Shown here piece after piece: positions 27,963 to 50,076 of a stretch of 64,000 bases of DNA; the stretch's first letter is position 1, and each line of letters opens with the position of its first letter. The notes beneath the pieces were generated by a model. That model was not told where the DNA came from. It saw nothing but the letters and a program-made list of their open reading frames with translations, and ran no database searches. Source of the DNA: Chryseolinea lacunae (GTDB lineage Bacteria; Bacteroidota; Bacteroidia; Cytophagales; Cyclobacteriaceae); assembly GCF_016735595.1 (NCBI RefSeq), contig NZ_JAERRB010000001.1, positions 1,302,001 to 1,366,000 of the forward strand, in the 5' to 3' direction. A program made the position numbers and the translations under genes.

Positions 27963-28228
27963 TCGTGGTTTATTTTGACCGATCAAGATCGTAATTAAAA
28001 ATAAGTTGTCAAAATAGCCCATAATCAGACTCCCGCCACACATTTTCATCATGCCCATCACCCTGCGTTTGGTCCGGTGGCTTCCTGCCCCGCTCGTCCA
28101 TTAGGAGGAAGCTAAAAGCTTTTCGCGTCCATGGGAAATCTGGTCTGGGGTGATACTTTTGTTCCCTATATTCTCCACCCGGCTTTCGGGGCTCGGCGTC
28201 TTTTTCCCCGGAATTTTTCTGCGTGCCA

Positions 28229-35997: not shown

Positions 35998-37620
35998 TTA
36001 ATTCCAGTCTTCGGATATATCTGTCGACAATGCTGTGTTGGTTGTCTTTTCGATTTGAGGAATCGGAAGTAAGACATGATGATCTTCGAAGGGTTGCTTG
36101 CCTAGCTGGAGTTGCTTCTCGCCATTGAGCGTTTGTTTTGCAATTCCCCAACGCACAAGGTCAAACCAGCGCACCTGCTCTCCGGCCAATTCCAATTGTC
36201 GCTCGCGTCTTAGAATCGTTTGTGCATTGTCGTGTGTTCCCAGCGATGTGTATTGAAACGCACCCACACGTGCACGCACAGTGTTGATGTAGGGCATGGC
36301 ATCGCCGATCTTGTTTTGCTCGATCAAACTTTCGGCAAGCATCAGCAACACGTCGGCATAACGAACAATTTGTGTGTTGATGTTGCTGTCGGGGCCTGCA
36401 TAAAATTCTTTCGTTTCATAATACTCATACTTGCGCCAGTTGTAGCCGATAGCGTTGTTCGCGCCAAACGGATAGGTATAGGGACCGGGCTGATTGGCAT
36501 CGGGCGCATACACCGCCATGAGGCTTCCTCCTTTGCTGGCCTTTGTGCAGGTGTGACAAAAATCAGTATCACCCCCGCTATCGGCATCGCCATAAAATGT
36601 ATAGTGTGCCCGTGGATCGGTGTAGTCGTCGCCAACTTCATCTTTGTATTTGAAGGCCTTCACCAGCGCCGGCGACACAAACGTGTTGTTCCAATCGTTC
36701 CATCCATACTCCATGGCTCTGCCGGTATGGGTTGTTTTGCCACCCCATGCTTCCTGGCCACCAAACATATAATACTGATCACCCGAAGCCCAGTCGGTCC
36801 ATTTGTGCTGGATGTCGAACACCGTCTCTACGCTGGTGTTGTTCGTAGCCGAAAACTGATTGTCGAAGTTTGCATTCAAAGTATAGGTGAACGGCGCCGT
36901 AGTGAGTTTCCGGAATTCACTTTCGGCCTGCGCATATTTCTTCTGATACAAGAAGGCCTTGCCAAGCAACGCAATGGCGGCACCCTTCGTGACCCGGCCA
37001 CGATCGGCTGCGCCATAAACAACGGGAAGCGAATTGGCGGCGTTGATGAAATCCGTTTCCACCACGGCCCACACATCGTCTACACTACCGGCGCGCGGTG
37101 TCAACTCGGTTGCTTTAGAAAATTCAAGCTTCAGGGGAACACGACCCCAAAGATTCACAAGCATGAAATAGGCATAGCCACGCAGGAAAGAAACTTCGCC
37201 AATGTATTGCGTCTTCTTGTCGATGTCGGTCTGCAACGTAGGTTGCCACTCGGTTGCTTTCGCCAGCACCAGGTTGGCACGGAAAATCATGCGATACAGA
37301 TTTCTCCACAAGTCAGACATCTGGGGTTGTGTGGGACCATAGCTATAGTCGTGAAGCTGTGCCACGTCGCCCAGCAAAAACACATTGTTTTCGGCGTCGT
37401 TTGCCAGCAAATCAAAAAGATAGTATGCGTCTCTCGAATACAAACCGTTCATCAGCAAGGTCGAGTAGGTAGCCACAACGCCCTCGTTAAACTGCGGCGC
37501 GGTTTTGAAATACGTCGTTTCGCTATACTGGCTTTGGCTTTTGATGTCGAGAATGTCTTCGCTACAGCCGCTGGCCAGCACGAAGACCGGAATCATGATA
37601 TAGGTTATAATTTTTTTCAT
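35998..37620 (-). CDS. SusD/RagB-family outer-membrane glycan-binding lipoprotein
   Basis: This 540-residue lipoprotein has signal sequence MKKIITYIMIPVFVLASGCS with lipobox LASGC, so Cys19 is lipidated. The SusD N-terminal region has LDIKSQSQYSETTYFKTAPQ and several TPR-type helices. The C-terminal part includes VRYADVLLMLAESLIEQNKI, YINTVRARVGAF and RRERQLELAGEQVRWFDLVR, standard RagB/SusD motifs. It acts on the cell surface as a lid and ligand binder for SusC, which is 13 bp upstream. A longer frame (to 37740) runs into the susC gene and is not used. Confidence 0.95.
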   Translation of the reverse strand: MKKIITYIMIPVFVLASGCSEDILDIKSQSQYSETTYFKTAPQFNEGVVATYSTLLMNGLYSRDAYYLFDLLANDAENNVFLLGDVAQLHDYSYGPTQPQMSDLWRNLYRMIFRANLVLAKATEWQPTLQTDIDKKTQYIGEVSFLRGYAYFMLVNLWGRVPLKLEFSKATELTPRAGSVDDVWAVVETDFINAANSLPVVYGAADRGRVTKGAAIALLGKAFLYQKKYAQAESEFRKLTTAPFTYTLNANFDNQFSATNNTSVETVFDIQHKWTDWASGDQYYMFGGQEAWGGKTTHTGRAMEYGWNDWNNTFVSPALVKAFKYKDEVGDDYTDPRAHYTFYGDADSGGDTDFCHTCTKASKGGSLMAVYAPDANQPGPYTYPFGANNAIGYNWRKYEYYETKEFYAGPDSNINTQIVRYADVLLMLAESLIEQNKIGDAMPYINTVRARVGAFQYTSLGTHDNAQTILRRERQLELAGEQVRWFDLVRWGIAKQTLNGEKQLQLGKQPFEDHHVLLPIPQIEKTTNTALSTDISEDWN

Positions 37621-37633
37621 AAGCTTATTTTTT

Positions 37634-40600
37634 TTAGAAGGCGACCTGAACACCGAGCATATAGGTTTTGGGTTGAGGATATTGGCCTCTGTCGATTCCA
37701 CGATCGAACAGAAAATCCTGGCCCACAATCTCGGGATCATAGCCTTTGTATTTTGTGAAGGTGAACAGGTTCTGCGCGGTCACGTAGACCCGGAGCGACG
37801 ATATGGTTTTGTTGAGTCCAGGCAACGGCACTTTATAGCCAAGCGTAACGCTGCGCACTCTGATGTAGGAGCCATCTTCCAGAAAACGATCCGACGCCCG
37901 CAGGTTTCGGCTCGCGGTGGCGTTTTGTCCGGCCTTGGGATACGCCGAAATGTCGCCTTCTGTTTTCCAACGATCAACAATGGCCACGCTGGAATTGAAC
38001 GGCCGGGTTGTTCCTTCTGTCCAATACGTCAAGTCATTCCAGACGCTCACTTTCGAAATGCCGTAGAGGCTCAACATGAAATCAAAATTCTTGTAGCCGA
38101 GGTTCACGTTCGAACCGAAGTTCCATTTCGGAATGGGACTCCCCAGAAAAGTTTTGTCGGCATCGGTCAACACACCGTCGCCGTTGATGTCACGAAAGAT
38201 GATGTCGCCCGACAAAAGACCTGCCTGATAGATCGCCGTCGGATTGCCTGTGGCGTTTCGAGCCGCCTGGTTGTAGGAATCCACATCGGCCTGATCGATG
38301 GCTACGTGATCTACCACGAAGCCAAAGAACGATCCAATGGGCTGGCCTTTCGCCGTTTTTGTTACGAGGTTCCCGCCGGTCACACCGCCGCGCTGAAATT
38401 CAGAACCTTCTCCAAGCGACACCACTTCGTTTTTGTTATAAGCCACATTCGCACCAATGGAATAGCGGAAAGCACCTGCGTTGCCCTGAAAGCTCACATC
38501 CACTTCCACACCTTTGTTCGATGCCGTGGCCGTGTTTTTCAGGATGCTCCCCGGATTGTCGAACGGTCCGCCAATACCCGTCGACAACGGAATGGGTACG
38601 TAGGTGAGCAGGTCTTCGTTCTTCCGGTTGTAGTAGCCAACGCTCAGCAGCAACCGGTCTTCCATAAGGCCCACATCAATGCCCACATCAAGTTGTTTGG
38701 TAGTTTCCCATTTGATGTTCGGATCGAACGACGAGTTTACCGTTGCTCCTTGCACATAGTTTCGTGCGTCGCCAAATGAATACACAATGTTGTTCGACTG
38801 TCCCTTCCAGATGGAAGAAAACTGAAGCGGCGCACTGGAGTTTCCGGTGATGCCGTAGCTTCCGCGAAGTTTTAATTGCGAAATAAATTCAACACTCCTC
38901 ATAAACGATTCTTCACTGATCTTCCACGCCAGGCCCACCGAGGGGAAATTCCCAAACCGGTTGTTCTTACTGAACACATAACTTCCGTCTCTGCGAAAAG
39001 AGGCTGTCAACAAATATTTATTCATGAGCGAATAGTTGACACGCGCGAAATAGGAAAGCGAAGAATACTCCGCAATGGTGCCACCGGTGATGCTGCTACC
39101 TGGCGCGGCGATAACCGTTTTGAGGTCGTCGTTCGGGAAATTTGTTCCTCTCACATTTACGCTGCGGGCCTGCGATCCATTGCGATAGGTGTTTCCGACC
39201 ATCACATCAAAATTGTGAACACCCAGTGTTTTGGCATAGGTGAAATAATTTTCCAACAGGGGATTGATATAATAGCCATACGATTCGTCTATGCCATTGG
39301 GGTTAACAAGGTTGCCATTGGCATTGGCCTGTTTGTAGTTATAGCTCGACGAGTTGCTGATATCGATCGAAACCTGCGAACGAAACTTTAGCCCCGACAG
39401 AATGGTGGCCTCACCAAAAAACTGGCCAAACGTGAGCGAGTTGCGTCCCTTGCGTTCACTCAACCGCACGCTGGTTAAGGGATTAAATGTGTCGTTGAGA
39501 TCGTCGGCAGAAGTAACTTTTGCATAGCCTCCAAGATTGGTAGGATCGTAGACCGGCGAATAGGTAGGCATGCGTAAGGCTTCGGTGAAGCTTGCTGTGT
39601 TGCCCGAGCTGATGTTGTATTGATAGTTTATCGTTTGTCCCAACCTCAACCACTTGCCCACTTTTTCTTCCAGTGCCAGGCGCACAATGAACCGTTTATA
39701 GTTGTATGTCTCCATGATGCCGTCCTGGTTCGTATAGGTAGCCGAGGCCTGATACAAAACTTTTTCTGTTCCTCCCGAAAGCCCAATGTTGTGTTCGGTG
39801 AGGGATGCGGTTTTAAAAATTTCGTCCTGCCAGTCGGTGCGATCCACGGTCACGTAGTCGCTCTTTAGTTTAGTGGTGAGCGCGTTGTTGGTGATGTCTT
39901 TCACCAGGTCCAGGTATTGGGCAGCGTTCATCATGTCGAGTTTTTTCCAGGGCTGCGCAATGCCGTAATAACCATTGTAGGTCACGCGCACATCGCCGGA
40001 TTTTGCTTTCTTGGTCGTGACAATGATCACACCGTTGGCCGCATTGGCACCATAGATGGCTGTGGATGCTGCGTCTTTCAACACGGTGATACTCTCGATG
40101 TCGTATTGACTGATGGCATTAAACAACGATGCGTTGCCTTGAATGCCGTCAATAACATAAAGAGGATCAACACTGGTGAAACTTCCGGCACCGCGCACGG
40201 CGATGCGCACACCGCCACCGGGCAGGCCCGAGCTGTTCACCACCTGCACACCCGAAATCTTTCCCTGAATCAATTGCTGCGCCGTGGTGGCCGGCACTTC
40301 ACCAAAATCTTTTTTCGTGGCCATGCCCACAGAGCCGATCAGGTTTTGTTTTTCAACCGCGCCATAGCCCATCACAATCACTTCGCTAAGCTCACGCACA
40401 TCGGGATGCAATACCACATTCAACGTTGTTTGAGTTCCCGCCGACACTTCTTGTGTGAGGTAGCCGATGAAACTGAATCGAAGCACATCGCTGGGTGACG
40501 CGGAAATAGAAAAATTTCCCTGCGCGTCGGTGGTGGTGCCAATAGTTGTGCCTTTGATGATGACACTTACGCCCGGCACGGGGCTCTTATCGTCTTCGGA

Positions 40601-40750
40601 CGTTACTTGCCCTGTAATAAGGCCTGCCTGAGTCTGTAAATGAATGCCGGCCTGCAGGCTGATCGTGGTTGCGATGCTCAGCGCCAGCATCAGGAACAGT
40701 TTGAATCCTGATGTAAATTTATGCTGCATAGATAAAGGGTTTGGTTTCAT
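37634..40750 (-). CDS. SusC/RagA-family TonB-linked outer-membrane transporter
   Basis: The 1038-residue protein has an N-terminal signal region (KLFLMLALSIATTISLQAG), then a carboxypeptidase-regulatory-like domain (GQVTSEDDKSPVPGVSVIIK, then GTTTDAQGNFSI), a plug domain (LSEVIVMGYGAVEKQNLIGS, QVVNSSGLPGGGVRIAVRG, DPLYVIDGIQG) and a 22-strand barrel ending SNVNLGYKNFDFML and a terminal aromatic (LGVQVAF). It imports oligosaccharides together with the adjacent SusD, powered by TonB-ExbBD. I prefer the ATG at 40748-40750; 40729 is also possible. An operator-like direct repeat lies upstream. Confidence 0.95.
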   Translation of the reverse strand: MKPNPLSMQHKFTSGFKLFLMLALSIATTISLQAGIHLQTQAGLITGQVTSEDDKSPVPGVSVIIKGTTIGTTTDAQGNFSISASPSDVLRFSFIGYLTQEVSAGTQTTLNVVLHPDVRELSEVIVMGYGAVEKQNLIGSVGMATKKDFGEVPATTAQQLIQGKISGVQVVNSSGLPGGGVRIAVRGAGSFTSVDPLYVIDGIQGNASLFNAISQYDIESITVLKDAASTAIYGANAANGVIIVTTKKAKSGDVRVTYNGYYGIAQPWKKLDMMNAAQYLDLVKDITNNALTTKLKSDYVTVDRTDWQDEIFKTASLTEHNIGLSGGTEKVLYQASATYTNQDGIMETYNYKRFIVRLALEEKVGKWLRLGQTINYQYNISSGNTASFTEALRMPTYSPVYDPTNLGGYAKVTSADDLNDTFNPLTSVRLSERKGRNSLTFGQFFGEATILSGLKFRSQVSIDISNSSSYNYKQANANGNLVNPNGIDESYGYYINPLLENYFTYAKTLGVHNFDVMVGNTYRNGSQARSVNVRGTNFPNDDLKTVIAAPGSSITGGTIAEYSSLSYFARVNYSLMNKYLLTASFRRDGSYVFSKNNRFGNFPSVGLAWKISEESFMRSVEFISQLKLRGSYGITGNSSAPLQFSSIWKGQSNNIVYSFGDARNYVQGATVNSSFDPNIKWETTKQLDVGIDVGLMEDRLLLSVGYYNRKNEDLLTYVPIPLSTGIGGPFDNPGSILKNTATASNKGVEVDVSFQGNAGAFRYSIGANVAYNKNEVVSLGEGSEFQRGGVTGGNLVTKTAKGQPIGSFFGFVVDHVAIDQADVDSYNQAARNATGNPTAIYQAGLLSGDIIFRDINGDGVLTDADKTFLGSPIPKWNFGSNVNLGYKNFDFMLSLYGISKVSVWNDLTYWTEGTTRPFNSSVAIVDRWKTEGDISAYPKAGQNATASRNLRASDRFLEDGSYIRVRSVTLGYKVPLPGLNKTISSLRVYVTAQNLFTFTKYKGYDPEIVGQDFLFDRGIDRGQYPQPKTYMLGVQVAF

Positions 40751-41068
40751 TTTAATGACCACGCCGCGATGTCGCGTTGGAGGCGAACGATGCCTCGCCA
40801 AATGGTTCAATAAAATTATGGCGAATTGTCCGCACACGTTTGTGACATCTTCCCAAGTTGTTGCATTATGTTACCGCGTGCTTTTTCAACCCATCCTCTA
40901 CCCCTATTGTATCCGTTGGGTAAGTATTCCCAAGTTCTGTAACTATATTCCCAACAGCTCACAGATTGATACGCCAACCCAGTTCAGCCAATCTGCGCCC
41001 GGCGTTCAATAGCCGATTCAATGAAAAGTTTCTAAATTACCTTTTGCCTAAACGGGCAGTGGCATGCT
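40751..41068. other. susC-hybrid regulator intergenic region with direct repeats
   Basis: This 318-bp gap lies between the divergent susC and regulator genes. It contains TATTCCCAA at 40925-40933 and again at 40946-40954, exactly 21 bp apart, plus a third TTCCCAAG at 40850-40857. TTGGG at 40916-40920 makes an inverted partner. A -7-like TAATTTTA for susC is on the minus strand (complement 40811-40818). Confidence 0.6.
40925..40954 (+). promoter_or_regulatory. Putative hybrid-regulator operator (21-bp-spaced direct repeat)
   Basis: Two copies of TATTCCCAA are separated by 12 bp, a 21-bp period, so both face the same side of the helix. This suits the two DNA-binding units of an AraC-type regulator dimer. 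The same arrangement (TTCCCAA / TTCCCAG, 21 bp) occurs at 47991-48018 before the GH97 gene. The divergent hybrid regulator is the best candidate to bind both. Confidence 0.6.
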
Positions 41069-44000
41069 ATGCTCAAACGCAATCACTTTTTTACACTCGC
41101 AGCCTGGCTATCGGCACTCTGCTGTAGTGCACAAACGCTCAACTTCAAACACATCACGGTCGAACACGGGCTGTCGCAAAACACGATCCGGTCTATCTGC
41201 CAGGATTCGCTGGGCTACCTGTGGTTTGGCACACAAAACGGCCTCAATCGTTACAACGGCCACGACATCGACATCTATGAGTTCGACAAAACCGATCCGG
41301 GTTCGCTCTCCAGCAACTTCATAAACACACTGCACGCAGCAAAAAATGGTGACGTCTGGATTGGAACCAACCACGGTCTTTGTGTGTGGGATCATCGCAC
41401 GGGACGTTTCGTGCGAATGGACACCAAATTCGACTACGACTGGCGAGGCGGTCAATATACGTTCTACGCCATTTACTTCGACCGCGAAGGCACCCTGTGG
41501 ACGCTGGCGCATAGCCAGGGCATGCACATCTACCGGAAGGGCCGAAACGAAACCAAATTCCAAAAAGTAAAATTCGTTGAGGATGAAGCCGACGAAAAAA
41601 CGTGGGACCTGTTTGGTCAGATAACCGAAGACACTGAAGGAAATTTATGGATCGGCTCCACGCGAAACGGCTTGTGGACGTGGCACCGGAAAACAAATGC
41701 CTGGACAAAAATCAACAACCCCGGTCACGACTACGCGATCACCTCGGTTGCTGTGGGCAAAAACAATTCGGTGTGGCTGGGCACGTACAGCCACGGGCTC
41801 GTGAGGTTTGATGCGAAAAAAAATCACTTTCGTGAGATCGCCGGACTGAACGATCACTCCGTGCGGAAACTGTATTTTGACCGGACCGGAAAGTTCTGGA
41901 TCGGCACCGACAAAGGCGGCCTCAACCTCTACGACACCACAAGCTCCACGTTCAGCTATGCCGACCATTTCCCCGACGACGCTACCACCCTGAATCACAA
42001 TTCGGTGATGGACATCTTTCGCGACAGACAAGGCATTCTGTGGGTTGGCACGTTTGCCGGCGGCGCGAACTATGCAGATCCGGGTTCAGGAAAGTTCAAG
42101 CTGATAACCGGAAGCGCCCACACCGGCACAAAACTCAGCAACAACATCGTGACCTCCTTCGCCGAAGATCCCCGGGGCAATCTCTGGATCGGCACCGACC
42201 GCGGTGGCCTGAACTACTTCGACCGAAAGATGGGCAACTTCAAACACTACCGCAAAGACGATCGCAAACACCACTGGATCTCGACCGACATTATTAAACA
42301 TCTCCTATACACCAGCCACAATCAATTGTGGATCGGCACCTGGCAGGGTGGCTTAAACTACTTCGACGAACGCAAACAGCAATTCACGCAATACCCGGTG
42401 AACGCAACCGCATCGGGTGTGAGTTCGGATATCATATTTTTCCTTGAAGAAGATTCGCAAGGCAACCTTTGGGTAGGCACTCCTGCCGGTCTTGATCGCA
42501 TCGATGCCAAAAGCATGCACAGTCAGTCGCCGCCTAAGATAAACGTGAAACACTTTAAAAAGACAGGAAGCGGGCCCGGCGAGCTGTCGGACAACTATGC
42601 CAACACGATCCTTGAAGACAATCAGAAACAAATCTGGATCGGCACCCGAAACGGCATCAACTTGCTTGACCCAACGTCCAACACGTTCTTCAACACCGGC
42701 AACAACCCCCAGCGAAAAAAAATCTTCACCACCGACTATGTGCAATGCATCACGCAAACAAAAGCCGGTGACTTCCTGATCGGAACAATCGAAAACGGCC
42801 TGCTCCACTACAACGCACAAAGCGATACGTTGGTCATGTATAACAAAAGCAACGGCTTTCCCAGCAATTCCATTATTGGAATCCTGGAAGCCGCCAACGG
42901 AAACTTCTGGATCAGCACCACAAACGGGCTCATCAAGTTTAACCTTCCTAAAGCCACGTTCACCCACTACAGTAAAGAAGACGGCATTCAAAGCAACGAG
43001 TTCAAGGAAAATGCTTTTTATAAACTCCGCACCGGCGAAATGCTTTTTGGTGGCACCAATGGGTTCAATCTGTTTCATCCCGACTCCATCACCGAAAATC
43101 CATACTCTCCTGTTCCCATCATCACCACGTTCAAACTATTCAACAAACCGGTTTCGCCCGGCGAAAACACGCCGTTGAAACAACACATTTCCATCACCGA
43201 CCAGATTGTGCTCAGCCACAACCAATCGTTCATTGGTTTTGAGTTCACGTCGCTGAACTTCAGTATCCCCGAAAAAAATCAATATGCCTACCGGCTCGAA
43301 GGAATAGACAAGCAATGGAACTATGTGAAGGGCGAACGCTCGGCAAACTATTCGTATCTGCCACCGGGCCGCTACGCGTTTACCGTAAAAGCCGCAAACA
43401 ACGATGGCGTCTGGAGCCCCACGCCCGCACGCCTCGTCCTCATTGTGAATCCATCGTGGTGGAACACCATATGGTTCAGGATGGCCGTTACGCTGGTCTT
43501 GATCGCCATGGTTTGGGCGTTGTTCAAATGGCGCACCCACACCTTGTACCAGCGAAAAAAAATCCTTGAACACACGGTTGCACAACGCACCATCGAATTG
43601 CAGGAGTCGAACGCGCTGCTGTCGCTCCGCCAAACGGAGATCATTCACCAGCGCGAAGAAATTAAAACACAGCACGACAACCTGGAGCAACAATACAACA
43701 CCATCCAATCGCTCAGCGAGATCGGTCAAACCATCACGGCCTCCATCAAACAGGACGAGCTGATCAAACAGATGTATACCACCATCAACAAACTCATGGA
43801 TGCGTCTCTTTTCTCCATCGGCTATTTCAGCAACGAGAAAAACGTGATCGAGTTCTCCACGCTCAAAGGTTATGGCGCCACGATCGACGCCAACCATATC
43901 GGCATTGACGAATCACGGCTTTCGGCATGGTGTCTGCGAAACAACCAGACGCTGTTGCTGGACGACATCCAGGACTATGTGCGCAACGAGGCCCCCGAAA

Positions 44001-45859
44001 TGCAGGAGCGATACGCCGCCGACAGTGCATACCGCTCGGCCATCTATCTGCCCATCGACTCCAAAAAACGAAAACCGACCGAAATCCTGGTGGTGAAGAG
44101 TTATCAACCACACTGCTACACACAGACGCACCTCAACACGCTGAAGAATCTCACGGCCTACATCGCCATTGCATTTGACAACGCGCGGGTTTACAAAAAA
44201 ATTGAACGCCAGTCAGACATGCTGAAAGAACAATCGCTGCGCCTCACGGAGCTCGACAGCATGAAGACCAGGTTCTTCCTTAATATCTCACACGAGTTCC
44301 GAACACCCCTCACCCTTATTGTGAGCCCCCTGGCAAAAATGCTGGGCGAGAAAAAAGTGCAGGAGTTACCAAACCTTTACCGCCAACTAGAGATGATGAA
44401 CAACAACGCAAACCAGCTGCTCCGATTGATCAACGAATTGCTCGAGATCAGAAACATTGAATCGGGCGGATCAACAACGGTGTCGGCCGATCAGATTGAC
44501 CTGGTGAAATTCACGTCCGACATCATATCGCGTTTCGAAGAAACGGCCCGCGAATTCGACATCCGGTTCAACCTGCTGAGCGACGCTGCCCGAATTATGC
44601 TTTGGCTCGACAAAAGCATGATGGAAAAAATTCTCCTGAACCTCTACTCAAACGCCTGCAAATACACACGGGCCGGTGGCCGCATCGACACCTTCATCAG
44701 CTATGAAGACACACCCGAGGGCCGCTATGTGAAGATTGCCATAAAGGACACCGGCATCGGCATACCTGAAAATGAACTTCCCTACATCTTCGAGCGCTTC
44801 TATCATGGTGCCGAACCGGTAAACTATAACCAGGAAAGCACGGGCATCGGCTTGTCGTTTGTGAAAGACCTTGTGAGCTTCCACTCCGGAAAAATTTCTG
44901 TGGAGAGCAAAACCAACAGCGGAACAGCCTTCACCATTCTCCTTCCCCTGGGTCATGCTCACTTCAAGGAGTCGCAGCTCATCCGCTACACCCTCGAAGA
45001 CAACGACGCGCCCACAGAACCCACACCGGTGGCAGAAGAACCCACCGGCAAAAAGCAGGACGAACTCCCTATTCTGCTAATTGTGGAAGACCATCGCGAT
45101 GTGAAGGACTTTCTGAAAATGGAACTTGAAAACGAGTTTGTGATTGTGGAAGCAAAGAACGGTGCCGATGGCCTTGACATGGCGTTCCAAAACATTCCCG
45201 ACCTCATCATCAGCGACATCATGATGCCGGTGATGGACGGCATCAAAATGTGCACTATCCTCAAATCGGACGAGCGCACAAGTCACATCCCCATCATCTT
45301 GCTGACGGCAAAGACCGGAGAGGATTCGCACATACGCGGTTTGGATATCGGCGCCGATGACTACATCCCCAAACCGTTCAACATCCGCATTCTTCGCGCA
45401 CGCATTCAGAATTTGATCGCGTCGCGAAAAATGCTGCACACCATTTTTTCATCGCGCGAAAAAATAGAGGTCACGCAACTCTTCGAAAATAAACACGACC
45501 GGATCTTTATCGAGAAAATAAACAATGCCATCCGCCAGAACGTGAAAAATCCGAACCTCAACCACGAGGTGCTGGCCAAAGAAGTTGGCATGAGCAAAAC
45601 ACAACTCTACCGAAAACTGCACGCCATCACAGGTAACACCGTGCATGAGTACATACGCAACTATCGCCTGCGATGTGCCGATGACCTGCTGGGATCGAAC
45701 CCCGACTTAATGATCTTCGAAATCGCCTACGAACTCGGATTCAAAGACCACGCTTACTTCAGCAAATGTTTTCACGCCCTCTATGGCCAATCGCCTGTGG
45801 AACGAAAGAAAGACAAAGAGAAGTCGAGACTGGAGCTGGGCGCGAAAGGTGTTTTATGA
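41069..45859 (+). CDS. Hybrid two-component system sensor kinase/AraC regulator (HTCS) with GAF domain
   Basis: This 1596-residue single-polypeptide regulator has a signal peptide (about 1-22) and about 14 Reg_prop repeats forming two periplasmic propellers (DSLGYLWFGTQNGLNRYNGH type). A Y_Y_Y domain (about 735-790) and one TM helix (about 800-822) follow. A GAF domain (about 890-1045) comes before the DHp domain with His1075 in NISHEFRTPL. The ATPase domain has DTGIGIP. The receiver has phosphoacceptor Asp1383 in ISDIMMPVMDG, and the AraC helix-turn-helix ends FKDHAYFSKCFHALYGQSPV. It senses oligosaccharides and activates the locus. The cytoplasmic GAF domain is not usual for HTCS proteins. 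Confidence 0.95.
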   Translation: MLKRNHFFTLAAWLSALCCSAQTLNFKHITVEHGLSQNTIRSICQDSLGYLWFGTQNGLNRYNGHDIDIYEFDKTDPGSLSSNFINTLHAAKNGDVWIGTNHGLCVWDHRTGRFVRMDTKFDYDWRGGQYTFYAIYFDREGTLWTLAHSQGMHIYRKGRNETKFQKVKFVEDEADEKTWDLFGQITEDTEGNLWIGSTRNGLWTWHRKTNAWTKINNPGHDYAITSVAVGKNNSVWLGTYSHGLVRFDAKKNHFREIAGLNDHSVRKLYFDRTGKFWIGTDKGGLNLYDTTSSTFSYADHFPDDATTLNHNSVMDIFRDRQGILWVGTFAGGANYADPGSGKFKLITGSAHTGTKLSNNIVTSFAEDPRGNLWIGTDRGGLNYFDRKMGNFKHYRKDDRKHHWISTDIIKHLLYTSHNQLWIGTWQGGLNYFDERKQQFTQYPVNATASGVSSDIIFFLEEDSQGNLWVGTPAGLDRIDAKSMHSQSPPKINVKHFKKTGSGPGELSDNYANTILEDNQKQIWIGTRNGINLLDPTSNTFFNTGNNPQRKKIFTTDYVQCITQTKAGDFLIGTIENGLLHYNAQSDTLVMYNKSNGFPSNSIIGILEAANGNFWISTTNGLIKFNLPKATFTHYSKEDGIQSNEFKENAFYKLRTGEMLFGGTNGFNLFHPDSITENPYSPVPIITTFKLFNKPVSPGENTPLKQHISITDQIVLSHNQSFIGFEFTSLNFSIPEKNQYAYRLEGIDKQWNYVKGERSANYSYLPPGRYAFTVKAANNDGVWSPTPARLVLIVNPSWWNTIWFRMAVTLVLIAMVWALFKWRTHTLYQRKKILEHTVAQRTIELQESNALLSLRQTEIIHQREEIKTQHDNLEQQYNTIQSLSEIGQTITASIKQDELIKQMYTTINKLMDASLFSIGYFSNEKNVIEFSTLKGYGATIDANHIGIDESRLSAWCLRNNQTLLLDDIQDYVRNEAPEMQERYAADSAYRSAIYLPIDSKKRKPTEILVVKSYQPHCYTQTHLNTLKNLTAYIAIAFDNARVYKKIERQSDMLKEQSLRLTELDSMKTRFFLNISHEFRTPLTLIVSPLAKMLGEKKVQELPNLYRQLEMMNNNANQLLRLINELLEIRNIESGGSTTVSADQIDLVKFTSDIISRFEETAREFDIRFNLLSDAARIMLWLDKSMMEKILLNLYSNACKYTRAGGRIDTFISYEDTPEGRYVKIAIKDTGIGIPENELPYIFERFYHGAEPVNYNQESTGIGLSFVKDLVSFHSGKISVESKTNSGTAFTILLPLGHAHFKESQLIRYTLEDNDAPTEPTPVAEEPTGKKQDELPILLIVEDHRDVKDFLKMELENEFVIVEAKNGADGLDMAFQNIPDLIISDIMMPVMDGIKMCTILKSDERTSHIPIILLTAKTGEDSHIRGLDIGADDYIPKPFNIRILRARIQNLIASRKMLHTIFSSREKIEVTQLFENKHDRIFIEKINNAIRQNVKNPNLNHEVLAKEVGMSKTQLYRKLHAITGNTVHEYIRNYRLRCADDLLGSNPDLMIFEIAYELGFKDHAYFSKCFHALYGQSPVERKKDKEKSRLELGAKGVL

Positions 45860-45900
45860 AAGAATACAAGCGACCCGGATCTGTGTTCGTGAGTTTTAGT

Positions 45901-47904
45901 CTATTTCGAAAGTTTATATTCCACTGGATACATGTTGTTGATCCATCTGTCAAACTTTCGTTCTTCCGTGGTCAGCACCCAATCGTCGCTTCGAAAGGGC
46001 GACGCAGGGAGGCCCGCCTCGTTGTATAGATTCCCATCGGGGTTGTTGGACCAGGAATAGCGAACCGCTTCGGGCGAAACCACCAACGGACTCTCTACCA
46101 CCACCACGTTTCCCTTGATGACCGCCGCAGCATTAAAAAAGATCTTATCCTTTCCGGCCACTTCAAAACCCCGAAGATATCCGTAACGATCGCGGGCAAT
46201 CAGTCGCGCTCCCTCCCGAAAGGTGATCAGTGTTCTTCCATTTTCGAATGACACACTTTTCACTTCCGGTCCGGCACTAACATACTTTTTCCCATAAAGA
46301 TGATTGAGCGCGATCAGCGACAACCGTTTGCCAACATCTTCCTTGTTTCTTGGATGAACATCTGTTGAATCTCCAAGATCAATCGTCACGGCCATGCCGG
46401 TGTTTGGCACAGCCAATGTCTTCTGCATCGACTCGCGGATCTCCGCCCATTGTGCTCCGCCATTTTTAGAATTCTGTTGATATTTCAAATAGTTCGGAAG
46501 CTGCACAAAATAGAAAGGCATCTCGGGCTGATCGAACCGTGCACGCCAGTCGGCGATCAATGCCGGCAGAAGCTGACGATATTGAAAAGCATACTCCGCA
46601 TTGTTCTCTCCCTGATACCACAACACGCCCTTCACCGTATAGGGAATGACCGGGTTAACCATGCCGTTGAAAAGAACATTTGGCTGAACATTCGGCGTGC
46701 GTATCCAGGTCTTCGCAGATGCGAAATTCATCTTCCAGGGCAAACCCGACAATTCAATACGCGACGACACACCCTCACTGCCTTCCAAATAGTAGGCTTG
46801 TGCGTGGGAAGTAAAGCCGCCGGTTTCCCAATAGTCGTTGATCTTGATAGCGATAACATTTTCGCCCGGAGTCAAAACAGATGCATCAATCACAAGGTCC
46901 GACGCGTTGGTGTTGTTGGAAGCGCCTCCTATTCGCTTTCCGTTAATAAAGATGTCGCCATAGTCTTCAACTTTCCCGAGGTGCAATGTCCATCCTTTCG
47001 GCGAAGTATGATCGGCCAACCTAAATCTGCCTCGGAACCAGACCGTTCCATCAAATCGAGGCAGCACCGTTTTATCGAAATCACCTGGAAAGGGAATCGA
47101 GATCCAATTGAGGTCGGCACAGTCACCCCGATGCCACAGCGAGTCATTCGTTTTGTAGTTGGTGAAAGATTCAATGCCGAGTTTTTTTCCATAGTCAGCA
47201 TAGAGTGCCTCAACGCTGGCAAACCAGGATGACAGCTGATGGTCAGTTAACGCGGACACATCGCGATAGTCCGGATTTTTGATGAGCGTTGAATGACTCA
47301 TCCACGCTTCAATGTAGGTGCCTCCCCAGGACGCATTAACAATGCCGACCGGCACGTTCAATTCATGGTTGAGCGCCTTTGCAAAAAAATAGCCAACCGC
47401 CGTAAACGACGGAACGGTTTCGGGCGAACAGACCGTCCACGAACCACCGGCAACATCATCGGAAGGCGATGCCGCTATTTTTTCCTTTACTTTAAAATGC
47501 CGTATAGTGGGCCAGTTGGCTTTTGCTATCTCCGTTTTGGCCGATGCTGTGTTCTGAACAACAAACTGCATATTGGATTGCCCCGAGCACAACCACACCT
47601 CGCCGATAAGAATATCGGTGAAGCGAATTGTGTTTTTCCCTTGCACAACAAGTTCATAAGGTCCACCGGCTACCATTTCCGGAATCACCACAAGCCAACG
47701 GCCTGTTTGATCGGTTACAACGGCCTTCTTGAATCCATTGAGATATACAGTCACCCGTTCTCCCTTGTCGGCCCATCCCCAAATTTTGATCGGCGCATTT
47801 CGCTGCAGCACGGCGTGGTCTGTAAAAATTCCAGGCATCCGCACATGGGCAGAAACCGCGATGGTGCACAACATGGCAACGGAAAACAAAATCAATTTCT
47901 TCAT
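45901..47904 (-). CDS. Exported SGNH O-acetylesterase (sialate O-acetylesterase family)
   Basis: The 667-residue protein has a signal peptide (MKKLILFSVAMLCTIAVSAH). The catalytic SGNH domain is split by an inserted beta-sandwich (about 290-370). Block I has Ser110 in LCSGQSNMQF. VGIVNASWGGTYIEAWM carries the glycine and asparagine blocks, and VLWYQGENNAEYAF is near the C-terminal half. DSTDVHPRNKEDVGKRL provides the Asp-x-x-His pair. Family members remove acetyl groups from sialic acid, xylose or galactose units. In a plant-glycan locus, the last is more likely. It is divergent from the GH97 gene. Confidence 0.9.
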   Translation of the reverse strand: MKKLILFSVAMLCTIAVSAHVRMPGIFTDHAVLQRNAPIKIWGWADKGERVTVYLNGFKKAVVTDQTGRWLVVIPEMVAGGPYELVVQGKNTIRFTDILIGEVWLCSGQSNMQFVVQNTASAKTEIAKANWPTIRHFKVKEKIAASPSDDVAGGSWTVCSPETVPSFTAVGYFFAKALNHELNVPVGIVNASWGGTYIEAWMSHSTLIKNPDYRDVSALTDHQLSSWFASVEALYADYGKKLGIESFTNYKTNDSLWHRGDCADLNWISIPFPGDFDKTVLPRFDGTVWFRGRFRLADHTSPKGWTLHLGKVEDYGDIFINGKRIGGASNNTNASDLVIDASVLTPGENVIAIKINDYWETGGFTSHAQAYYLEGSEGVSSRIELSGLPWKMNFASAKTWIRTPNVQPNVLFNGMVNPVIPYTVKGVLWYQGENNAEYAFQYRQLLPALIADWRARFDQPEMPFYFVQLPNYLKYQQNSKNGGAQWAEIRESMQKTLAVPNTGMAVTIDLGDSTDVHPRNKEDVGKRLSLIALNHLYGKKYVSAGPEVKSVSFENGRTLITFREGARLIARDRYGYLRGFEVAGKDKIFFNAAAVIKGNVVVVESPLVVSPEAVRYSWSNNPDGNLYNEAGLPASPFRSDDWVLTTEERKFDRWINNMYPVEYKLSK

Positions 47905-47990
47905 AAAAAACTTTTTAAACAGCACGAAATACCGTTGTTCGTGAACGATTGTAAAACTATTGAACCTTTCACCATGCGTCTAGAATCCGG

Positions 47991-48018
47991 TTCCCAATCT
48001 GTTGTTCCATTTTCCCAG
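47991..48018 (+). promoter_or_regulatory. Second putative hybrid-regulator operator
   Basis: TTCCCAA (47991-47997) and TTCCCAG (48012-48018) are spaced by exactly 21 bp, like the pair at 40925-40954. It is located between the esterase and GH97 genes and about 37 bp upstream of a -7-like TATCTTTA (48055-48062), a position suited to activation of the GH97 gene. Confidence 0.55.
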
Positions 48019-48054: not shown

Positions 48055-48062
48055 TATCTTTA
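48055..48062 (+). promoter_or_regulatory. -7-like element of the GH97 gene
   Basis: TATCTTTA matches TAnnTTTG at seven of eight positions, 19 bp before the ATG at 48082. There is no -33 TTTG, as would be expected of an activator-dependent promoter. Confidence 0.4.
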
Positions 48063-48081: not shown

Positions 48082-50076
48082 ATGTTCAAATTTTTTCTTG
48101 CGTTCTTTTTAACCTTCTCCATTCTCTCAACCGCCCAAACGCGAAACGACAGCACGCTGCTCACATCGCCCGACAAGAATGTACACGTGATTATCAAAAC
48201 CGGAGAGCGCATTTCGTATCGTGTCGTTTTCAAAAACAAACTCATTCTTCCATCCGGCAACATTGCGCTTTCGCTTAGCGACGGAAGTGTGCTGGGCCAC
48301 AACAGCCGGATGAAGTCAAAAAAATTATTAAGCGTCGACAAAATTGTGACACCTCGCTATGGCATGGCCGACCGTTATCACGACCGGTATAACGAAGTGG
48401 AGCTCCAGTTCGAAAACCAGTTTTCGGTCACCTTTCGCGCATACAACAACGGCGTGGCCTATCGCTTCTCGACCCGCCTTCCCGGAAAAATCAAAGTCAC
48501 AAACGAAGAAACAACGTATAGACTGGGCGCCGACACGCGTGGATGGATGCAAAAAGTTTCCGGCTTTCTCAATTCTTATGAAGAACATTATCTGGATGCG
48601 CCCGTCTCGGCGCTCGATTCAGGTAAAATAGCCGTGCTCCCACTATTGGCCGAAACAAAGGGAGTCAAAATCGCTTTCACCGAGGCTGATCTTTTTGACT
48701 ATCCCGGACTCTATCTTACCTACAGCAAAACAGAAGGTCTCAAAGGCATGCACCCCCCGGTGGCCCTTAAAGACTCGGTAGGAGGCTGTTGCCCTGACTT
48801 CGAAAAACTCGTTACCCAAACTGCACCGTACATTGCCGAGACCAATGGCACACGCAAATTCCCCTGGCGCCTCATGATTGTTGCCGAACAAGACAAAGAG
48901 CTTCTTTATAACAACCTGGTCTACCTGCTGGCCGCCGATCCTAAAAACGAAACCAACTTCTCATGGGTCAAACCTGGAAAAGTGGTTTGGGATTGGTGGT
49001 TTGCCAACAACCTTAAAGGAGTCGGGTTCACCGCCGGCATGAACACGGAAACCTACAAACACTATATCGACTTCGCCGTCGAACACAACATTGCCTACAT
49101 CAACATGGACGAAGGCTGGAGCGATCAGCACAATCTGCTATCGGTGAGCTCAACAAATAGTCAACCCCTTGACTTGCCCTATCTTTTCCAATACGCGTCA
49201 CAAAAAGATGTCGGCATCATTTTATGGTGCGTATGGCATACACTCGACAGGCAAATGAAAGAGTCGTTCGACCAGTTTGAAAAATGGGGTGTGAAAGGAT
49301 TGAAGGTTGACTTTATGGATCGCGACGATCAGTACGTGGTCAATTTCTACGAGCGTGTTGCCAGCGAAGCGGCGAAACGAAAGATGCTCGTCAATTTTCA
49401 TGGCGCCTTTAAACCCACCGGCATGGAACGGACCTACCCCAATGTTATCAACCGCGAAGCCGTTCTGGGGCTGGAGTATAACAAGTTTTCAAAACGATCC
49501 ACACCCGATCATGCCGTTGACATTGCTTTCATCCGCATGCTCGCGGGTCCCCTTGACTACACGGCGGGCGGCATGACGAATGCAAACGCAGAAGATTTTC
49601 GCATCAGCAAGAACCGCCCCATGACCCAGGGCACCCGTTGCCAGCAACTGGCCATGTTTGCACTTTATTATTCTCCCCTGCAAATGCTGTCAGACTCTCC
49701 CGAAGAATATCGGAAAGATCCCGCCATTCTTCACTACATCACGTCTGTGCCCACGGTTTGGGATGAGACCGTTCCCGTGGCCGGAATGATGGGCGAGTAT
49801 GCGGCGGTGGCCCGAAGAAAAGGCAACGTGTGGTATGTGTCAGGCATAACAAACTGGGCGTCAAGAACCCTTGAAGTCCAGTTAAGCTTTCTGCCCGATG
49901 GCGACTACAAAGCAATGCTCTTCACAGACGGAAAGAACGCTTCCCGGATTGGCGACGATTATGTTCAGGAGATTAAAACCCTACATGCCGGCGAAACCAT
50001 TTCCGTCACGATGGCCGAAGGCGGTGGATTCGCGTTTGTGTTGGAGCCAAAGCATGACAGCGAAAAAGAAAAATAG
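48082..50076 (+). CDS. GH97 glycoside hydrolase, probable retaining alpha-galactosidase
   Basis: This 664-residue exported enzyme (signal peptide to about residue 19) has an N-terminal GH97 beta-sandwich (VFKNKLILPSGNIALSLSDG), a TIM barrel and a short C-terminal beta domain. Barrel motifs are WVKPGKVVWDWWF and IAYINMDEGWSDQHN. Asp410 in GLKVDFMDRDDQ and Glu465 in LGLEYNKFS match, with the same 55-residue spacing, the nucleophile (Asp415) and acid/base (Glu470) I recall for Bacteroides BT1871, a retaining alpha-galactosidase. Inverting SusB-type members use glutamates instead. It is at the right border of the glycan locus and preceded by the second repeat pair. Confidence 0.9.
   Translation: MFKFFLAFFLTFSILSTAQTRNDSTLLTSPDKNVHVIIKTGERISYRVVFKNKLILPSGNIALSLSDGSVLGHNSRMKSKKLLSVDKIVTPRYGMADRYHDRYNEVELQFENQFSVTFRAYNNGVAYRFSTRLPGKIKVTNEETTYRLGADTRGWMQKVSGFLNSYEEHYLDAPVSALDSGKIAVLPLLAETKGVKIAFTEADLFDYPGLYLTYSKTEGLKGMHPPVALKDSVGGCCPDFEKLVTQTAPYIAETNGTRKFPWRLMIVAEQDKELLYNNLVYLLAADPKNETNFSWVKPGKVVWDWWFANNLKGVGFTAGMNTETYKHYIDFAVEHNIAYINMDEGWSDQHNLLSVSSTNSQPLDLPYLFQYASQKDVGIILWCVWHTLDRQMKESFDQFEKWGVKGLKVDFMDRDDQYVVNFYERVASEAAKRKMLVNFHGAFKPTGMERTYPNVINREAVLGLEYNKFSKRSTPDHAVDIAFIRMLAGPLDYTAGGMTNANAEDFRISKNRPMTQGTRCQQLAMFALYYSPLQMLSDSPEEYRKDPAILHYITSVPTVWDETVPVAGMMGEYAAVARRKGNVWYVSGITNWASRTLEVQLSFLPDGDYKAMLFTDGKNASRIGDDYVQEIKTLHAGETISVTMAEGGGFAFVLEPKHDSEKEK

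Follow-up and report, generated by a model that had tools for sequence, protein, structure and literature searches.

Putative 21-bp direct-repeat operators of an HTCS regulator at the susC and esterase promoters of a Chryseolinea lacunae glycan locus

A 64,000-nucleotide stretch of the Chryseolinea lacunae genome (contig NZ_JAERRB010000001.1, referred to as the window) carries TTCCCAA-type direct repeats with 21-bp spacing in two intergenic gaps flanking an HTCS gene. These repeats are putative operators of the adjacent HTCS and very probably act at the susC and esterase promoters, as judged from the comparison of DNA and protein sequences. The original prediction had considered them suited to AraC-type HTCS regulators and had proposed a candidate regulon with GH97 and esterase genes. 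The domains of the regulator and the footprint in an orthologous locus indicate that the pairs behave as operators of this HTCS, whereas the pairing at susC had to be revised and the membership of GH97 was not supported.

The glycan locus and its regulator

The HTCS gene is located between two gaps, with the divergent susC and susD genes on one side and a SASA-domain esterase gene on the other, followed by a GH97 gene on the plus strand. Homologues of susC and susD stand side by side here, together with genes for glycan-active enzymes and a regulator, which is the composition of a PUL. The gene products are as follows:

35998..37740, minus strand: SusD-like glycan-binding protein (profile match; start codon uncertain)
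37634..40729, minus strand: SusC-like TonB-dependent transporter (profile match; start codon uncertain)
41069..45859, plus strand: HTCS regulator, 1596 aa, with Reg_prop, Y_Y_Y, GAF_2, HisKA, HATPase_c, Response_reg and HTH_18 domains and the recognition helix SKTQLYRK
45901..47904, minus strand: SASA-domain carbohydrate esterase, 667 aa (profile match)
48082..50076, plus strand: GH97 enzyme (profile match), outside the conserved locus

In the regulator, the Reg_prop and Y_Y_Y sensor, the HisKA and HATPase_c kinase, the receiver and HTH_18 that define the HTCS class are combined in one chain, and each scored above its Pfam cut-off. Its translation also contains TSHIPIILLTAK (SHIP) in the receiver α3-β4 loop; in the excerpts of PMC11253607 considered, this S/CHIP motif belongs to the inhibitory REC-DBD interface. 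Among the matches listed in named genomes, the 80 best HTCS loci showed 25–40% identity in their best segment.

Occurrence of the paired repeats

On the plus strand, TTCCCAA is read at 40850, 40927, 40948 and 47991 and TTCCCAG at 48012, and the spacing is exactly 21 bp in both pairs (40927/40948 and 47991/48012). All five positions and the exact spacing given in the original prediction were confirmed, and a genome-wide count spoke for its proposal of a specific paired motif: TTCCCAR-N14-TTCCCAR occurs four times in 7,916,274 bases, two of them in the window, and the reversed pattern not at all, a frequency well in excess of chance. No such pair was found in 100 dinucleotide shuffles of the window. 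The relaxed pattern TTCCCA-N15-TTCCCA gave six places in the whole genome versus one for the control. When both gaps were shuffled with retention of dinucleotides, a shared 6-mer pair of equal spacing between 10 and 60 appeared in 2 of 20,000 shuffles, and at a spacing of 20–22 in none. A looser scan of the window for TTCCCAA-N14-TTCCCAA with up to three mismatches yielded 13 places versus 10.4 expected, so no claim of further operators is possible from it.

Outside the window, the genome pair at C8:4561 is surrounded by reading frames that were judged by eye to be non-glycan. Another one, a TTCCCAG/TTCCCAA pair with 21-bp spacing (C12:521735–521762; L004 1501–1528), is intergenic between two minus-strand reading frames, with a SusD-like frame (by eye) at a distance of approximately 1 kb and another HTCS at approximately 7 kb. 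A search for TTCCCAA-N14-TTCCCAR in 146 genomes gave matches in 61 of them, with 93 places listed, three of which belong to C. lacunae. Seventy-two of the 90 outside places were examined; those left out were an array of five in genome G144 and 13 others, mostly of the recurrent TTCCCAAACCTG type or simple repeats. Thirteen of the 72 were intergenic, and one of these (L141) lies beside an HTCS. The G144 array (C22:23536–23668) consists of five overlapping TTCCCAA pairs and resembles the tandem repetition of a 21-bp unit.

Operator and promoter geometry at susC and the esterase gene

The sites and predicted promoter elements are listed with their conservation in L263, the orthologous locus of genome G236 described below:

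40811..40818, minus strand: predicted susC -7 element TAATTTTA, the sole TAnnTTT on the minus strand of the gap; 8/8 bases kept
40850..40856, minus strand (TTGGGAA): promoter-proximal half-site of the susC operator, 38 nt 5′ of the -7 element; 7/7 bases the same
40871..40877, minus strand (GCGGTAA; TTACCGC on the plus strand): distal, degenerate half-site of the susC operator, 21 bp from the proximal one; GCGGTAACATA unchanged
40927..40933, minus strand (TTGGGAA; TTCCCAA on the plus strand): half-site of the upstream pair; TTGGGAA kept
40948..40954, minus strand: second half-site of the upstream pair, 21 bp from the first; CTGGTAA in L263 (5/7 bases kept)
41038..41045, plus strand: predicted HTCS -7 element TACCTTTT, the sole TAnnTTT on the plus strand of the gap, in a conserved block
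47952..47959, minus strand: predicted esterase -7 element TAGTTTTA; 8/8 bases kept
47991..47997, minus strand (TTGGGAA): promoter-proximal half-site of the esterase operator, 38 nt 5′ of the -7 element; 7/7 bases kept
48012..48018, minus strand (CTGGGAA): distal half-site of the esterase operator, 21 bp from the proximal one; TTGGGAA in L263

The TTCCCAA at 40850 had been described as a further copy. It is not single but has a degenerate partner 21 bp away that is conserved in the orthologue, and the putative susC operator is corrected to the 40850/40871 site rather than the 40927/40948 pair. Read toward the genes, the susC operator is GCGGTAA-N14-TTGGGAA-N31-TAATTTTA and the esterase operator CTGGGAA (TTGGGAA in G236)-N14-TTGGGAA-N31-TAGTTTTA. 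At both genes, the minus strand carries a TAnTTTTA -7 element, and the proximal half-site starts exactly 38 nt ahead of it; this distance is constant in four promoters (susC and esterase, both genomes). In the part of PMC7366714 considered, TAnnTTTG is given as the -7 consensus of Bacteroides and Flavobacterium. No -33 box was seen, and the single-strand folding of the upstream region was unremarkable (z −0.60).

Conservation in an orthologous locus

A degenerate DNA pattern for the helix SKTxLYRK was searched in 390 genomes of the family and led to genome G236 (genus g74) with the locus L263, in which the identities are 87% for HTCS (1596 aa), 87% for SusC, 86% for SusD and 79% for the esterase. 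In the receiver-DBD region, 247 of 260 residues of the HTCS are identical, and both recognition helices (SKTQLYRK and DHAYFSKC) are unchanged. An esterase search in the 390 genomes revealed no second close locus (79% in G236, next 46%); with L263 as the sole orthologous locus recovered, the footprint is a comparison of two sequences. An HTCS search in 146 relatives gave best identities of 32–36%; as three candidates were scored per genome, it does not prove the absence of the HTCS from these relatives.

In this comparison, 39 of 42 half-site bases are kept (26/28 in the susC gap, 13/14 in the esterase stretch), together with 16/16 bases of the susC and esterase -7 elements. Outside the half-sites, 285 of 507 positions are kept (164/310 and 121/197, respectively), a figure that includes the -7 elements and scores unaligned ends as not kept. 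In the HTCS gene, third codon positions show 55% identity. The sites are therefore conserved 5′ of orthologous genes, in one orthologous locus. On the left side, the 5.4 kb of G236 that lie past susD had no match to any protein encoded at 28000–56000 of the window except SusD. As far as these two loci tell, the conserved unit is a set of four genes: susC, susD, esterase and HTCS.

Composite operator searches

The composite GGKAA-N14-TTGGGAA-N31-TAnnTTT was found without mismatches at two places each in the C. lacunae and G236 genomes, all four in this locus; there is no other perfect composite site in either genome. With two mismatches, 4 + 3 further places compared with 3 + 4 for the reversed control (7 versus 7), so no distant regulon member was seen in these two genomes. 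Omission of the distal half (TTGGGAA-N31-TAnnTTTR) added two places in the C. lacunae genome, both within reading frames. In seven genomes of the genus of the orthologue, the composite with at most one mismatch gave four places beyond the two of G236, versus none for the reversed control. They are located in G078, G270 (two places) and G283, and one of the G270 places resembles that of G283; the G078 place is an intergenic pair (L183), around which no HTCS was detected up to 3 kb away. The G270 and G283 places may include further members.

GH97 and the third site

The esterase operator lies between two divergent genes and could be shared, with the 47991/48012 pair also controlling GH97, for which TATCTTTA at 48055 could act as the -7 element. 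We consider this rather unlikely. The distance to this candidate element is 43 instead of 38, with the half-sites in reversed orientation, the GH97 side of the gap shows no conservation compared to L263, and GH97 was not found in the orthologous locus. In G236, genes for a Penicillinase_R (BlaI) protein and an M56 peptidase adjoin the esterase operator in its place (L263 12503–15094), and the closest GH97 of that genome is 42% identical and encoded on another contig. With GH97 missing and its gap side unconserved, its membership in the regulon is unsupported; of the two genes originally proposed as members, the esterase gene is retained. A gene next to an operator, here GH97, is not necessarily a regulon member. 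A second alternative is implied by the earlier pairing at susC, namely that susC is controlled mainly from 40927/40948 as a far-upstream operator, perhaps with looping to the 40850 site. This pair gives the best match, lies within the shared gap, and is separated from the 40850 site by 77 bp, one of the spacings (67 or 77 bp) of SusR-like motifs in the sections of PMC3878776 considered. In the orthologue, however, the distance from the pair to the susC operator is 46 bp longer, which is no whole number of turns, while that to the HTCS -7 element is equal in both genomes (index 116 versus 22); moreover, no TAnnTTT occurs 38 nt from the pair toward susC. An AraC-type HTH_18, as present in the HTCS, is not described for SusR in the same sections of PMC3878776. 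We consider a main susC operator at 40927/40948 very unlikely, and the combination of half-sites 67 or 77 bp apart with a SusR-type regulator that marks SusR-like operators does not apply here, given that the 77 bp are lost in the orthologue and the regulator is of the HTH_18 type.

The fixed distance to the HTCS promoter and the changed distance to susC favour the view that the third site acts on the HTCS promoter, with its orientation reversed. The comparison of two sequences hints at 40927/40948 as a candidate autoregulatory site, which would most likely adjust HTCS expression.

Generality of the spacing and identity of the binder

In 34 other HTCS-SusC gaps, exact repeats of length at least 8 occurred at spacing 21 in seven gaps and at spacing 22 in three, compared with a mean of 0.40 for each other spacing (12–59); none of 300 shuffles reached seven. 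The gap of the window itself is not among the 34, as it is masked by a short overlapping frame. Two of the seven repeats are A/T-rich runs (L046 and L010), and that of L116 is palindrome-like. In gaps with no HTCS beside them that also do not lead into SusC, a peak at 21 bp was present but weaker (19/536 versus a mean of 5.6 for other spacings); thus, the spacing alone cannot identify the binder. Nine other HTCS-adjacent gaps of C. lacunae contained exact 21-bp repeats of length at least 8 in two cases (L115 and L116), and their different words fit regulator-specific half-sites, with caution for L116. Repeats of the TTGCAATCGTTTGA type with 21-bp spacing stand directly before susC in L116 (6748–6770) and L245 (14336), in two genera whose adjoining HTCSs are 65% identical. 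They have the look of a LacI-type palindrome close to the start codon and not of an activator site.

Lone TTCCCA hexamers are frequent (46 places on both strands of the window, many of them coding), as would be expected if the repeats arose by chance; this origin is contradicted by the shuffle tests and by the footprint in the orthologue, and we regard it as virtually excluded. Binding by another transcription factor instead of the adjacent HTCS is a further alternative: the genome encodes 98 HTH_18 matches (97 above cut-off), 21 bp correspond to two helical turns and fit many dimers, and certain 21-bp repeats beside other HTCSs resemble operators of another kind, such as the LacI-like TTGCAATCGTTTGA of L116. 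It is nonetheless highly improbable in view of the perfect composite sites, which in both genomes occur solely beside this HTCS, and of an HTCS of another genus (L214/L243, helix SKTKLYRK) whose locus contains two copies of TATATTCCC spaced by 21 bp, compared with 0 of 96 control HTCS loci with an intergenic TTCCC pair at this spacing. The adjacent HTCS is retained as the probable binder.

Recognition helix and half-site

The L214/L243 HTCS was the best match to the DNA-binding domain (48%) in the 146 genomes, a set without the orthologue. In L243, the TATATTCCC repeat lies 5′ of a gene that is GntR-like by eye. Among the 96 control loci, two had an intergenic TTCCC pair at spacing 22. Five non-orthologous HTCSs with the helix SKTxLYRK were picked by protein (L243, L261, L262, L264 and L265), and one of their loci contained an intergenic TTCCC pair at 21; no such pair was present in the DNA examined for the other four, two of which were short (L264, 7.6 kb; L265, 13 kb). 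Of 86 typed panel HTCSs, only that of the window has the SKT triplet, and 22 more were untyped. At the DNA level, 90 of 390 genomes contained matches to the degenerate SKTxLYRK pattern, and of 20 places among the matches listed, chosen by codons, five were SKT HTCSs, one of them the orthologue. The HTCS of L141 has the helix SKTRLYDK; because L141 was found through the DNA pattern, it is not independent evidence.

One of five SKT loci versus 0 of 96 controls is suggestive of a protein-to-site recognition code. An unlikely, speculative extension is that the first HTCS recognition helix reads its half-site in a transferable manner (SKTxLYRK reading GGGAAtATA) and that the HTCS controls its own promoter via the reversed third operator; if true, regulons would be predictable from protein sequence across the phylum. 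In L243 (3360–3430), an inverted copy, CGGGAATATA, follows the TATATTCCC repeat, giving three half-sites 5′ of a small reading frame and the GntR-like gene (by eye). The pair of L141 is likewise located 5′ of a GntR-like gene.

Proposed mechanism and comparison with known systems

In the mechanism we propose, a glycan signal would lead to phosphorylation of the receiver, and an HTCS dimer would then activate, rather than repress, the susC and esterase core promoters. Its two AraC-type DNA-binding domains would bind TTGG(G/T)AAnAT half-sites, read toward the target gene and 21 bp apart. With the proximal half starting 38 nt before a TAnnTTTG-type -7 element at both genes, this geometry would place the bound dimer just upstream of the core promoter. 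In the E. coli AraC araI1-I2 operator, direct half-sites are likewise 21 bp apart, with the proximal half beside the core promoter. The half-site layout is shared, whereas the regulator described here is membrane-bound and controlled by phosphorylation, and the promoter has a Bacteroidota -7 element.

Direct repeats with approximately 21-bp spacing 5′ of PUL genes, as observed here, have the layout of HTCS operators. In the sections of Ravcheev et al. 2013 (PMC3878776) considered, direct-repeat motifs with an average spacing of 21 bp are reported for 16 HTCSs, and in Bacteroides thetaiotaomicron such operators of AraC-type HTCSs precede PUL operons. According to the same sections, the motifs vary from one regulator to another, with similar motifs in close paralogues; the likeness to our sites lies in arrangement and spacing. 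Our analysis adds the distance to the promoter and a putative operator linked to the promoter of the regulator itself. Response-regulator fragments of BT4124 and BT4663 bind susCD promoters in the excerpts of PMC11253607 considered, and these regulators share the REC and HTH_18 output and the SHIP sequence with the HTCS of the window. The considered part of PMC12125979 deals with a Vibrio XylR-type regulator. The sites are very likely HTCS operators, a type of control that has already been published; the additions are the susC pairing, the geometry of operator and promoter, a supported regulon from which GH97 is removed, and the autoregulatory candidate. The locus offers a testable regulon with two putative operators, an autoregulatory candidate and a four-gene core for an HTCS without a close relative among the 80 loci from named genomes.

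Unlike BT4124 and BT4663, the HTCS of the window has a GAF_2 domain (residues 896–1037) between Y_Y_Y and HisKA, through which a cytoplasmic signal may complement the periplasmic one. A literature search for an HTCS with a GAF domain found no publication with the terms used. Four other HTCSs scanned were without GAF_2; it is likewise present in the L263 orthologue and in two HTCSs of 1581–1656 aa from other genera (L131 and L132).
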